A DNA stretch of 64,000 nt from a virus: positions 30,431 to 94,430 of the IMG/VR virus record IMGVR_UViG_3300037247_000961. One strand, written 5' to 3'. Each line of letters begins with the position of its first letter. Position 1 is the first letter of the stretch. This document shows, in pieces, positions 50,071-60,138 of this stretch. Under the pieces are notes generated by a model. The model was given only the letters and a program-made list of their open reading frames with translations, did not search any database and was not told the DNA's origin. A program made the translations under genes and the position numbers.

Positions 50071-51108
50071 CTATGCTTCCCGAGAAACCAATCTTGCGAA
50101 CTTGATCATCTTCCGCTCGGGGTACACCCGATTCCAGGAAGTGGCCACGTTCAGTTGATTGGCACCTGTGCCGTTGCCCGGCCCACCGTTCGGGGCCGTG
50201 CCTGTGTAGGCATGCCCGACCGGGTGAAGCGACCATTGCTGACGGGAGTAAAGAATCTCCTGCCCGCCGCCGTTACCGGCGCCCGCGGCGCGGACGATCT
50301 CGGTCGGCACCTTCGGGGGACTAGAGCCAAGCCGCAAGAAGCCGGCACCAAACAGCCACGAGTCGTAAACATTCGAGGCGTTGGGCATGCCGTCATCGAT
50401 CAACACCGACCGGCCAAGGAACGTGGGGATGTTGACCACACCGTTCGAGTCCGGAATGAAGTCGATCAGGTTGTTCTTCTGCATGCGGTTGTACACGACC
50501 GAATGAACCATGATCGCGACCAGGTCTTCCATCGAGTCGCCCATCGTAACGGCGGTGTCGAGGAACGCCTCGGCCGAGAAATTGGTCACGCCATCGACGA
50601 AGCTGGAACCAGAGATGTCGTTCTGGTAATCGCCAGAGTCGTTGGCAACGTTGTCCTTGATCACACCGTTCACGGTAGCGAGGACAATCGTTTGAAGGCG
50701 CCGGGTCCAATAGAAACCGACCCTGCCGATAATGGCATCGAGCGGATCTTCACCGGCCAGTACCGCGGACAGATCGGCACTCGACCAGGACTGGTTACGG
50801 TTCAAGCGAACCGCGATCTCTTGGTCGGTCTCGATTTTCTGCGGATTAGGAGAATCCGTTCCACCGGAGAAGCCAGCGGACGTCGAGGTATCAGTTGACA
50901 CCCGATCCGCGTCGCTATCCAGATCACGGAATGACGGAACGTTGAAGGTGAGGCCCCCGCCGGCCAGCATCTCGTCAATGGCAGGATCGCGCACCGCAAC
51001 ACCTGAAGTGATGATGCGAGCCTTCTCCTCCGTCAACTGCTGAACGTAAGGGGTGAAGATTTCCGGCACTATGACGTCGGAAACTTGGGTGATGGGACCA
51101 GCGGCCAT
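50071..51108 (-). CDS. Major capsid protein
   Basis: 345 residues. HK97-like features: an N-terminal arm (SDVIVPEIFTPYVQQLTEEK), the E-loop-like GGGLTFNVPSFRDLDSDAD, spine-helix region LSAVLAGEDPLDAIIGRVGF and a closing beta segment WNRVYPERKMIKFARLVS. Also characteristic is SRQQWSLHPVGHAY near residue 290. It has its own promoter and a leader hairpin, unlike most genes here, consistent with very high expression. A ribosome-binding site AAAGGAGA precedes the ATG. Confidence 0.85.
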   Translation of the reverse strand: MAAGPITQVSDVIVPEIFTPYVQQLTEEKARIITSGVAVRDPAIDEMLAGGGLTFNVPSFRDLDSDADRVSTDTSTSAGFSGGTDSPNPQKIETDQEIAVRLNRNQSWSSADLSAVLAGEDPLDAIIGRVGFYWTRRLQTIVLATVNGVIKDNVANDSGDYQNDISGSSFVDGVTNFSAEAFLDTAVTMGDSMEDLVAIMVHSVVYNRMQKNNLIDFIPDSNGVVNIPTFLGRSVLIDDGMPNASNVYDSWLFGAGFLRLGSSPPKVPTEIVRAAGAGNGGGQEILYSRQQWSLHPVGHAYTGTAPNGGPGNGTGANQLNVATSWNRVYPERKMIKFARLVSREA

Positions 51109-51187
51109 GGGAAAATCTCCTTTGCAGGCTGGCTATGGGATAAACCATCGCCGAGCACCATGGCCGGGTCTGGAGGGATTGGAGGCA

Positions 51188-51217
51188 AAATCAGACTGGC
51201 CCATGGCCATCTGATTT
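51188..51217 (-). promoter_or_regulatory. 5'-terminal stem-loop of the capsid transcript
   Basis: On the minus strand AAATCAGATGGCC and GGCCA-TCTGATTT pair over 13 bp with one bulged G and an ATG loop. It begins just where the predicted transcript start falls (about 51218). Such 5' stem-loops protect mRNA from decay, which fits a capsid message. Confidence 0.55.
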
Positions 51218-51224
51218 CGCACCT

Positions 51225-51254
51225 TATATACACGATCTTGCATCAAGATGCAAG
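51225..51254 (-). promoter_or_regulatory. Leftward capsid promoter with overlapping palindrome
   Basis: Minus strand: TTGCAT (51253-51248), 17 bases, TATATA (51230-51225). The -35 is weak. The 18-bp palindrome CTTGCATC-AA-GATGCAAG (51237-51254) covers the -35 and half the spacer, so an activator or repressor probably works here. The gene behind it is the major capsid gene. Confidence 0.6.
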
Positions 51255-51320
51255 TCTTTTCTAGAACAAAAAGGGAATTGGGTAATATTCTTGCGTTTTT
51301 ACATCATTGGTCGATTTTGG

Positions 51321-51349
51321 TTGACTTGGAGCGATGGAAGGCTTATTTT
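51321..51349 (+). promoter_or_regulatory. Rightward promoter of the plus-strand cassette
   Basis: TTGACT (51321-51326), 17 bases, TATTTT (51344-51349). A 12-base direct repeat TTTTTACATCAT occurs at 51296-51307 and again at 51346-51357, flanking the -35 and covering the -10/start region, as an operator would. The first gene's GAGGAGG follows within 15 bases. Confidence 0.6.
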
Positions 51350-51373
51350 TACATCATACCGAGGAGGAACCCA

Positions 51374-51898
51374 ATGACCTTTACCGCCCCCACCACATAC
51401 GCCGAGGCCAAGGCCCTGATGGGCAAGGACGTTGAGACCCCCATCGGCACGCTGCACTGCACAGGCGCCGGGCTGCACGGAGTCGCCGGCACACCCACGG
51501 AGGAATACAGCATCAATTTCCACAACGCCAAAGGCAACGTCGCGATCTCTTGGTCAAGCATCGATGGCTGGGTCACCCTGGCCGAGCAGAAGGCGCGGAC
51601 CTGGAAGATCGGATACGACCGGCTGAGCACCGCAGCCCACAAGTTGCTTGACCTGGTCCTGGGCACCGAGCTTAAGGATATCCCGGTAGAGCGCCGCGCC
51701 AATGTTGACAAGCTCTTGCGGATCGCAAAGCGCCGGTTGATTAAGGCCGGCAAAATGACCCTCAAGACCTGCGCGCGCTGCGGCGGAGGAGGCAAGTTTA
51801 GCTACAACGAGATCGACGGGGACATGTGCTACGGCTGCGGCGGAAGCGGCAAGGTGCTTCCTACCACGACCGACGCCCTGCGCGTAGCGCGCAAGTAA
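51374..51898 (+). CDS. Plus-strand cassette gene 1: DnaJ-type zinc-ribbon protein
   Basis: 174 residues from ATG 51374 (GAGGAGG in front). Near the C-terminus are CARCGGGGKF and CYGCGGSGKV, two CxxCxGxG zinc knuckles. The N-terminal 110 residues (ALMGKDVETPIGTLHCTGAG; AISWSSIDGWVTLAEQKART) are unrecognised. First gene of a short operon that runs against all other genes, between the scaffold and capsid genes. Possibly a regulator or host-takeover protein. Confidence 0.65.
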   Translation: MTFTAPTTYAEAKALMGKDVETPIGTLHCTGAGLHGVAGTPTEEYSINFHNAKGNVAISWSSIDGWVTLAEQKARTWKIGYDRLSTAAHKLLDLVLGTELKDIPVERRANVDKLLRIAKRRLIKAGKMTLKTCARCGGGGKFSYNEIDGDMCYGCGGSGKVLPTTTDALRVARK

Positions 51899-51911
51899 GG
51901 AAAAGGCAATC

Positions 51912-52085
51912 ATGATAACACCTATGAAACCCAACCGCGCATTTGAGGTTGCCAACTCGGGAGCAAAAACGGAAGCTCAGCGGGTGCAAGCAATTAAGGC
52001 GCTCAAACTGTTTGCTCGCCAAGCGCCGGAAGCAGCAGAAATCGCACAGGAAGCTTGGCGTAAACTTGCAAGGAGACTGCCATGA
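51912..52085 (+). CDS. Plus-strand cassette gene 2: 57-residue protein
   Basis: Small gene with AAAAGGC before ATG 51912. Helical, basic and alanine-rich (EAQRVQAIKALKLFARQAPE), no known family. Its stop overlaps the next start as ATGA, which supports translation. Cationic helical peptides of this size can bind nucleic acid or host enzymes, but this is only a possibility. Confidence 0.55.
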   Translation: MITPMKPNRAFEVANSGAKTEAQRVQAIKALKLFARQAPEAAEIAQEAWRKLARRLP

Positions 52086-52243
52086 AGCTAAACAAAGAAC
52101 GGAAATCGCGTCTAATCGACGACCTGATCCAGGTAGCCTTGGATATTTTGCATCACGATATTGACATAAATGACGACGCGGGCAAGTGGGAAATTGAAAG
52201 ATTGCAAGAAGAATTCGGCGTAATCTTAGACGGCATGGAATAA
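52082..52243 (+). CDS. Plus-strand cassette gene 3: 53-residue protein
   Basis: Small gene coupled to the previous one by ATGA. A basic start (MKLNKERKSRLIDDLIQVAL) then an acidic helix (ERLQEEFGVILDGME). Not recognised. The run of tightly coupled small genes is typical of phage early accessory operons. Confidence 0.55.
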   Translation: MKLNKERKSRLIDDLIQVALDILHHDIDINDDAGKWEIERLQEEFGVILDGME

Positions 52244-52261
52244 AGGTTGGAGGACAGACCA

Positions 52262-52459
52262 ATGACCTCTACCATCAAGGGAGATAATCAAATGCCCTGG
52301 TACATCATAACGGACTACCAAGACAACGGCGCTGTAGCGCAGCGCCAATACATCGAAGCCAAGAACCGCAAAGAGGCACGAGTGAAGGCCGGCGAAATGC
52401 CGACCCTCAATCGCGTAACGGAAAAAGCGCGACTCGACAAAGACGGACGACTCGTTTAG
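52262..52459 (+). CDS. Plus-strand cassette gene 4: 65-residue protein
   Basis: Starts at ATG 52262 (TTGGAGG in front) or at ATG 52292 (AAGGGAG in front); both are plausible. Sequence WYIITDYQDNGAVAQRQYIE with AKNRKEARVKAGEMP has a small alpha/beta look. The stop overlaps the stop of the scaffold-like gene on the other strand by four bases, so the two transcripts converge here with no terminator between. Confidence 0.55.
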   Translation: MTSTIKGDNQMPWYIITDYQDNGAVAQRQYIEAKNRKEARVKAGEMPTLNRVTEKARLDKDGRLV

Positions 52460-53301
52460 GCCTTAGCCTTCGGCGCCGGCTGTCTCCCGCCGATGGATGT
52501 ACCGGCCGATGCTGCCATCCGTTCGGCCTTGGGCCTATCCTCGCGGATGGCCTTGCCCTGCTCCGTAAGGTTCCAATGCTCCTTTGACCACGGATTCTTG
52601 GCGAAGCCCGCCCCGCCAGTGCCACCGCCGGCACCGCCGCCCGTGGATGCCGGCCACCAATGCGGACGCTTCTCCTGCATCTCGGACAGCCAGATATCAG
52701 GGGCAATGCCCGGGGTCACACCGACCTGGTCACGGGTCAACACGAGGCCTTCGTCATTGATCTCGAACTGGCGCTCGGCATACATCAACACGTCGTCGAT
52801 TGCCGTATCGATGACCTTGGAAGCTGTAGCCGCCGTGCGCACTGCATCGCCGATGGTGCGAATGGTGTTCGCCTGCTCGAAGCCCAGGATCTTCTCGTCC
52901 TTCTCTTCCCCGGCCTTTTTCAGATCCAAGTTCTCACGGTCAGAAGTCACCTTGGCCGCAACAATGCGAGCCTCGGCCGCGGCCTTGACCCCCGCTTCGA
53001 ACTTCTCTTTGCCGTCTTTGCCGCCTTCGCCGGCCTCGGCCGCTGCACGCAACTCGGTCAGTTCGGCCAAGTCCGCATCGACCTTTTCCTTATCCATCTC
53101 GGCCCAAACGGCGACCTTCTTCTTGGACTCCTTGTGATCGGTGCGCTCCTTGCCGAGAGCAACGTTCAACTTGTCGACATCGGCCTTGGTGACAAGGCCA
53201 TTGATGCCGGTAAGCTGCCACTTGCCCTCGACCTCGGTGTAGAGTTCGATATGCGCCTCGGGAACGTCCTCTTTCTTTTCGTACATTAGTTCGAGTGCCA
53301 T
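52456..53301 (-). CDS. Capsid scaffold-like protein
   Basis: 281 residues from ATG 53301 (AGGAGAGA in front). N-terminal YEKKEDVPEAHIELYTEVEG and GINGLVTKADVDKLNVALGK, a long coiled coil (residues about 55-135), and a Gly-rich, basic tail (STGGGAGGGTGGAGFAKNPW). This plan matches phage scaffold proteins of the GP20 type. Normally the scaffold gene directly precedes the capsid gene; here the plus-strand cassette separates them. Confidence 0.7.
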   Translation of the reverse strand: MALELMYEKKEDVPEAHIELYTEVEGKWQLTGINGLVTKADVDKLNVALGKERTDHKESKKKVAVWAEMDKEKVDADLAELTELRAAAEAGEGGKDGKEKFEAGVKAAAEARIVAAKVTSDRENLDLKKAGEEKDEKILGFEQANTIRTIGDAVRTAATASKVIDTAIDDVLMYAERQFEINDEGLVLTRDQVGVTPGIAPDIWLSEMQEKRPHWWPASTGGGAGGGTGGAGFAKNPWSKEHWNLTEQGKAIREDRPKAERMAASAGTSIGGRQPAPKAKA

Positions 53302-53387: not shown

Positions 53388-53684
53388 TTAGATGCGTTTC
53401 CCCCAGTTGCCAGGGCCTTCGCCCTCGCAAACACTGGTCACCCACAACGAGTCATTGCCGTCAAGGATCACTTGGCCATTGACGCAAGTGCTTGACCACA
53501 CCCTGGTAACAATCATTGGCACCGGCACACCCATGTAAACCTTATTTCCAAAGTGCGCTTGATACCCATCCTTGCGGACTCGCATCATATCCCGATTATG
53601 GGAAGCATGTTCATACCGTCGATTGATGCTTGCCGCATCATCGTCCGACAATTGGTACAGAACGGTATCACCTAATTGAATCAT
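53388..53684 (-). CDS. Hypothetical phage protein
   Basis: 98 residues: small beta domain (MIQLGDTVLYQLSDDDAASI, NGQVILDGNDSLWVTSVCEG), not recognised. AAAGGAG lies in the gap between the tRNA-Thr 3' end and the ATG, so it is probably read with the tRNA. Confidence 0.55.
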   Translation of the reverse strand: MIQLGDTVLYQLSDDDAASINRRYEHASHNRDMMRVRKDGYQAHFGNKVYMGVPVPMIVTRVWSSTCVNGQVILDGNDSLWVTSVCEGEGPGNWGKRI

Positions 53685-53700: not shown

Positions 53701-53775
53701 TGGTGCCGCGCCGAGGAATCGAACCCCGATCTGCCTCCTTACAAGGGAGGGCTCTGCCTGTTGAGCTAACGCGGC
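53701..53775 (-). tRNA. tRNA-Thr (UGU)
   Basis: 75 bases with encoded CCA. Acceptor GCCGCGT/GCGCGGC, D-stem GCTC/GAGC, anticodon stem CCTCC/GGAGG around CTTGTAA (anticodon TGT), T-arm CGGGG/CCTCG with TTCGATT. It resembles E. coli tRNA-Thr(UGU) but lacks the usual single base between the D and anticodon stems (position 26). Confidence 0.85.
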
Positions 53776-53825: not shown

Positions 53826-53999
53826 TCAACAAGCATCCGATTTGTTCCGCCGAGCAATCCACTCTTCATACTCGGGGAACTGGCCTCGCTCCGTGAGGCC
53901 TGCGGTCGATCCGATCATGACCGGCTTGCGATAGAGCGGGTCACTGGGATGAATTCGGCCTCGCGTTAATAGTGCCTCGGCCTTTTGTAAATCGCTCAT
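53826..53999 (-). CDS. 57-residue hypothetical protein
   Basis: Small gene starting at ATG 53999 with GAGGAGATCAA in front; stop TGA at 53828-53826. Sequence begins MSDLQKAEALLTRGRIHPSD and includes LYRKPVMIGSTAGLTERGQF; not recognised. It fills most of the stretch between the tRNA-Thr and the gene at 54118. The strong ribosome-binding site is the main support. Confidence 0.6.
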   Translation of the reverse strand: MSDLQKAEALLTRGRIHPSDPLYRKPVMIGSTAGLTERGQFPEYEEWIARRNKSDAC

Positions 54000-59487: not shown

Positions 59488-60138
59488 TTACAGCAAAATA
59501 AGCTGATTGGAATTATGCAAACGCGCTTGTTTGCTCAATCGTTGAGCTTCTTTAAGCCGACGATTGAATTCTGGGTCTTGACGCAGCTTTTTCATCCTTT
59601 GTGACCGTTGTTTCCGAATCTTAGGATCGGCATTGTTCTTTGCAAGAACTTTTTCCATCTTTTCTCGATGACCTGGTTTTGCCCACGCAGCCATACATGC
59701 TTTCCTCTGACTCTCTCGATATTCTTCGGTTCCATTTCTGTAAGCATGATGTTTCTTCACTGCGGATTGAAGATTCGGATGGATTGCTTTACCCCTGTTC
59801 GCTGATCCAATTCGATATCGCACTTCCTCGCTTGGATCACCCCCAGTCGATCCCCCACGAACTGTATTGTACTCCGAAGGACTCCGAGTGCCAAAGGACT
59901 GAATGAAATAATCCTCTAAGGCAAATATTAAATCTCTTGGGCCAACTAGCAAAGTCCTAACAGTAAAGTTTTCGGCCCCGTACTTACGCATAGCATTTTG
60001 AAGATATGATCCATCACCGCGCGGATTGGTCCGTTTGGAATCAGACACATGACCACTGAAGCGGCGAGCAATGGTGTTTTTTGTAGCCCCAATATATTGT
60101 TTCCCCTCTGGGCCTGTAATGATGTAAAGTTCTGCCAT
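59488..60138 (-). CDS. GIY-YIG homing endonuclease
   Basis: 216 residues. LYIITGPEGKQYIGAT is the GIY-YIG motif; RRFSGHVSDSKRTNPRGDGS supplies the catalytic arginine and histidine, and ALEDYFIQSFGTRSP the glutamate. The basic C-terminus with repeated helices (RQDPEFNRRLKEAQRLSKQA-type) binds DNA. It begins directly after the terminase stop, splitting the terminase-portal pair. A Seg-like mobile gene. Confidence 0.85.
   Translation of the reverse strand: MAELYIITGPEGKQYIGATKNTIARRFSGHVSDSKRTNPRGDGSYLQNAMRKYGAENFTVRTLLVGPRDLIFALEDYFIQSFGTRSPSEYNTVRGGSTGGDPSEEVRYRIGSANRGKAIHPNLQSAVKKHHAYRNGTEEYRESQRKACMAAWAKPGHREKMEKVLAKNNADPKIRKQRSQRMKKLRQDPEFNRRLKEAQRLSKQARLHNSNQLILL

Follow-up and report, generated by a model that had tools for sequence, protein, structure and literature searches.

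The four open reading frames (p1 to p4) that lie between the head scaffolding and major capsid genes of this phage are likely to constitute an optional, moron-like accessory unit of early-type genes, placed at a natural operon boundary. The observations that carry this reading are the layout of the genes, the absence of the cassette from related phages, the retention of the capsid promoter and the replication-module setting in which relatives of p1 are found. The window, that is, the whole stretch of 64,000 nucleotides that was analyzed, corresponds to bases 30431-94430 of a virus record of 94,430 bases. Within it, the cassette occupies positions 51374-52459 of the plus strand. The genes at this location, and one hairpin, are as follows.

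50071-51108, minus strand: major capsid gene (phrog_247, E 4.7e-97)
51374-51898, plus strand: p1, 174 amino acids
51912-52085, plus strand: p2, predicted basic helical protein of 57 amino acids; the least certain gene
52082-52243, plus strand: p3, predicted acidic protein of 53 amino acids; ATGA overlap with p2
52262-52459, plus strand: p4, predicted protein of 65 amino acids, or of 55 from a second good start at 52292
52327-52347, minus strand: terminator-like hairpin, antisense to p4 and about 110 nt past the scaffold stop; hairpins in this region are about as numerous as expected by chance
52456-53301, minus strand: head scaffolding gene (phrog_206, E 1.7e-31)

The frames are closely packed: p1 and p2 are separated by 13 nt, p2 overlaps p3 by 4 nt, and p3 and p4 are separated by 18 nt. 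Each of the four is preceded by a Shine-Dalgarno-like sequence. The stop codons of p4 and of the scaffold gene overlap (TTAG, 52456-52459), so that these genes converge with zero gap. An earlier note on this DNA had described four tightly coupled genes opposed to all others, and gene calls based on codon usage bear this out over the whole record. In the 64-kb window, 75 genes were called on the minus strand and three (p1, p3 and p4) on the plus strand. Over all 94,430 bases, about 132 genes were called on the minus strand; the plus strand yielded the cassette and three ORFs that are short and weak. The cassette ORFs are the sole credible plus-strand genes of this phage record.

The earlier note also took the cassette to be accessory, and comparison with relatives agrees. 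None of 71 other scaffold-capsid loci (a set that includes several near-duplicates) carries these inverted genes at this site, and the cassette is thus optional. In 67 of these loci, the gap between scaffold and capsid genes measures 78-269 bp; the others are L009 (332 bp), L051 (543 bp), L037 (738 bp) and L053 (853 bp). From this comparison, the cassette looks inserted. The closest relatives by capsid share just 71% identity, too distant to date the insertion event. In L037 (5259-5879) and L053 (4787-5494), the gap is occupied by DNA methyltransferase genes, which belong to two different PHROG families and are co-oriented with the head genes. The slot therefore accepts cargo and appears to be a recurrent site of insertion; we found no literature on it. 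The only other copy of the cassette was found on L079 (IMGVR_UViG_3300043256_000247), an identical contig of 9,426 bases whose identity to the window was established over the 6,624 bases fetched. This contig starts at window position 51272, inside the p1/capsid control region, and its start could be an assembly break caused by strain variation at the edge of the insertion.

The region between the capsid gene and p1 is 265 bp long and contains two divergent promoter-like sites. Elements of the region are listed here.

51185-51220, minus strand: capsid leader hairpin, GCGAAATCAGATGGCCATGGGCCAGTCTGATTTTGC, which in the window is a longer form whose apex reads AUG
51225-51253, minus strand: capsid promoter, TTGCAT-N17-TATATA, at a distance of 148 bases as measured to the last base of the capsid ATG
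51296-51307, plus strand: direct repeat, copy 1, TTTTTACATCAT, preceding the -35 element of the cassette promoter
51321-51349, plus strand: promoter-like site of the cassette, TTGACT-N17-TATTTT, a 9/12 match
51346-51357, plus strand: direct repeat, copy 2, TTTTTACATCAT, overlapping the -10 element and the expected transcription start

The feature marked in the earlier note began at 51225, but positions 51225-51253 are part of the capsid promoter and not of the cassette. That note further claimed that a separate promoter for the capsid gene had been made necessary by the insertion. The relatives contradict this idea: many phages without the insert already carry a TTGC-N17-TA promoter in the gap, usually 110-155 bases upstream of the capsid start, and the window retains its copy. 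When 70 gap sequences were scored (the window itself and a few loci that lack a scaffold match among them), 40 reached at least 7/12, compared with 10.5 expected. Because relatives that lack the insert have a capsid promoter, the capsid gene already formed its own transcription unit prior to the insertion. By eye, some relatives also have a G+C-rich hairpin between the scaffold stop and the capsid promoter. Judging from these comparisons, the cassette sits at a natural operon boundary, with the scaffold stop on one side and the ancestral capsid promoter on the other. More generally, the scaffold-capsid junction in this phage group emerges as an operon boundary that tolerates cargo and at which the capsid gene has a promoter of its own. 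In L007, L010, L012 and L016, the -35 and -10 elements of the capsid promoter are located inside an inverted repeat (CTTGCACCAT...ATGGTGCAAG) that might serve as an operator; a shorter repeat, CTTGCATC/GATGCAAG, is present in the window at 51237-51254.

Capsid leaders of this phage group share a hairpin with the apex C-[AG]NGG-G, that is, an [A/G]NGG tetraloop on a C-G closing pair. Hairpins with a stem of at least 5 bp are present in 33 of 68 capsid leaders (2.8 expected), including those of L006, L007, L016, L035, L038, L054 and L059. The commonest tetraloops are ATGG, AGGG and GTGG, and stems vary. With a stem of at least 6 bp and the C-G closing pair, 28 hairpins occur in the leaders (12.3 kb) and 17 in the remaining sequence (742 kb), an enrichment of roughly 100-fold over the rest of the loci. 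Six of these 17 have an AUGG loop and lie 980-1090 nt upstream of the capsid gene, where the scaffold leader is expected. Because the hairpins were selected for pairing, variation in their stems is by itself no proof of covariation; the bias in loop sequence and the position are the stronger evidence. The capsid leaders of the window and of five loci tested gave no match in Rfam, and we found no literature on the hairpin. It is a candidate for a new regulatory RNA element in phage capsid production.

On the cassette side, the earlier note had proposed a good sigma70 promoter and a direct-repeat pair. The promoter-like site is appropriately placed for p1, but its sequence match is at the level of chance, with 6 such sites in 8 kb against 4.6 expected. 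The promoter is therefore supported by position, not by sequence. The repeat was confirmed as an exact 12-bp direct repeat, TTTTTACATCAT, with copies 50 bp apart that bracket the promoter-like site. In shuffles of the 149-bp stretch, a 12-bp repeat arose in 1 of 3000 trials (p ~3e-4, a local value). Across the window, this is the sole 12-bp repeat within 100 bp, apart from a few tracts of repeats within long genes; by our estimate, about 0.4 repeats of such spacing are expected in 64 kb. A fair guess is that the pair is a putative repressor or activator site. As a phage-wide promoter motif, TTTTTACATCAT was rejected (6 near matches in 64 kb versus 5.15 expected).

The p1 protein consists of a small five-stranded beta domain, a helical middle and a DnaJ-like C-terminal zinc ribbon (CxRCGGxG...CxxCxGxG). 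Its AlphaFold2 model (mean pLDDT 88.4, pTM 0.66) was built from an alignment of eight sequences that included the locus homologues. Foldseek searches of PDB and viral models with p1 gave no match at E 0.001 or better; weak resemblances to the BSD2, anti-TRAP and CarD folds were below significance and were set aside as evidence.

Five relatives of p1 were found, all among genes for replication or DNA metabolism and none in head modules. Two are nearly full length (34-41% identity): QWY83595 of RHph_X2_26, with helicases, a RecB-type exonuclease and a primase downstream, and the protein of L086, next to a DNA polymerase exonuclease subunit. The other three match the C-terminal half. That of L085 (residues 71-166, 40%) adjoins ParA/ParB, that of L087 adjoins Holliday junction resolvases and thymidylate synthase, and that of L089 adjoins DnaD/DnaC-like loaders and a Mom-like protein. 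From these neighborhoods, p1 looks like a replication-module type of gene. On plasmids, no p1 homologues were found, and the only close relative in IMG/VR was an identical contig.

Chaperone and antitermination roles were also considered for p1. The zinc ribbon is common to many otherwise unrelated phage proteins, and it is the only part of p1 that matches DnaJ (13.8 bits against a cut-off of 377.2) or the antitermination protein Q-like family phrog_127 (E 0.39). The score to the Q-like model TIGR02642 was 19 bits against a cut-off of 101.4, and both assignments were rejected. The zinc ribbon of the closest relative of p1 matches the antitermination Q-like family phrog_6060 with E 3e-5. Probably, p1 binds nucleic acid or a host enzyme that acts on nucleic acid.

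By codon usage and composition, p1, p3 and p4 look coding and p2 is doubtful. G+C content is 63% in p1, 53% in p2, 43% in p3 and 53% in p4, and 53% in the window. The codon score of p2 is negative; most minus-strand ORFs that overlap the cassette score lower still. No relatives of p2, p3 or p4 were detected in phages, the sole IMG/VR match to p3 and p4 is an identical contig, and the left 30 kb of the record contains no paralogue of p1-p4 below E 0.29. The score of p2 and the lack of relatives for p2-p4 would suit a scenario in which p1 alone is real and the others are chance or decaying ORFs, brought along with a misplaced fragment of a replication module. We consider this quite unlikely, since the frames tile compactly with ribosome-binding sites and an ATGA overlap, and p3 and p4 combine positive codon scores with low second-position GC.

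Several specific functions can be envisioned for the cassette. Small, uncharacterized early-type phage genes often serve in anti-defense or host takeover, and the cassette could accordingly act at an early stage by blocking host restriction or other defenses, or by redirecting host RNA polymerase. This proposal is a sub-case of the moron-like explanation with a specific function added, and we regard it as possible, if doubtful. It is consistent with the methyltransferases that occupy the same slot in two relatives, with the several DNA methyltransferases encoded by the phage itself, and with the Mom-like DNA modification gene beside one p1 relative (L089). However, neighborhood by itself is weak evidence, PADLOC models match none of p1-p4, no fold match exceeded the threshold, and p2-p4 lack relatives. 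Very unlikely, in our judgment, is the stronger proposal of a new anti-defense or host-takeover operon, led by an uncharacterized zinc-ribbon family, whose antisense orientation lets late transcription switch it off. Another hypothesis is that the cassette chiefly regulates the head genes, with p1 as a Q-like or other DNA-binding regulator that acts at the divergent p1/capsid region and balances scaffold against capsid. The -35 elements of the two promoters are about 70 bp apart with repeats alongside, the Q-like match of the zinc ribbon in the closest relative would fit, and the ant moron of P22 alters read-through into the tailspike gene (PMC2629481). Yet 71 relatives express the same head genes without the cassette, the Q-like match is confined to a ribbon that many phage proteins have, and p1 relatives sit in replication modules. 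We find this regulatory role improbable.

Under the moron-like explanation that we favor, the cassette would have been acquired downstream of the scaffold stop codon and upstream of the ancestral capsid promoter. Host RNA polymerase would then read it rightward from its own sigma70-type promoter, presumably at an early stage of infection. At later times, leftward late transcription that passes through the scaffold gene would run antisense over the cassette and may damp its expression, while the capsid would be made from its own ancestral promoter. A non-exhaustive scan revealed no integrase among the ORFs checked.

Other additional elements are present in the head module. A homing endonuclease gene (59488-60138, minus strand) lies between the terminase large subunit and portal genes, and a tRNA-Thr gene with a TGT anticodon (53701-53775, minus strand) lies between the scaffold and MuF-like head genes. 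The same interval contains small ORFs close to this tRNA gene, at 53388-53684 and 53826-53999.

Among known phages, the head modules of Nipunavirus and Beaumontvirinae (JG054, BUCT627 and Salva) have related proteins in the same portal, scaffold and capsid order, but only a gap of 113-150 bp separates scaffold from capsid, and the window differs by the cassette. QWY83595 of RHph_X2_26 is 34-35% identical to p1 over nearly its entire length, zinc ribbon included. However, it is encoded on the same strand as its neighbors, in a cluster of small ORFs before replication genes, whereas p1 is opposed to its neighbors in a head module. The C-terminus of p1 has CxxCxGxG repeats as in the zinc-binding domains of DnaJ (cysteine-rich), BSD2 and anti-TRAP, with weak fold resemblance; the likeness is restricted to this stretch, and p1 has no J domain and no significant fold match.

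The closest parallel for the cassette as a whole is provided by morons. A strict definition of these elements requires a factor-independent terminator after the genes (PMC5567305), and none was found in the plus direction past p4. Given this and the chance-level promoter match, the cassette is not a complete moron, although its absence from all 71 related loci points to inserted genes by comparison of relatives. The genes are also unrelated to ant, mnt and arc of the ant moron of P22-like phages (PMC2629481). The cassette is probably an optional extra of a familiar sort, not a new type of system, and it yields a short list of uncharacterized early-type proteins. Like the ant moron (PMC2629481), in which nonstructural genes occupy one tolerant site of a late operon, it is absent or different in relatives, and morons are usually expressed independently.
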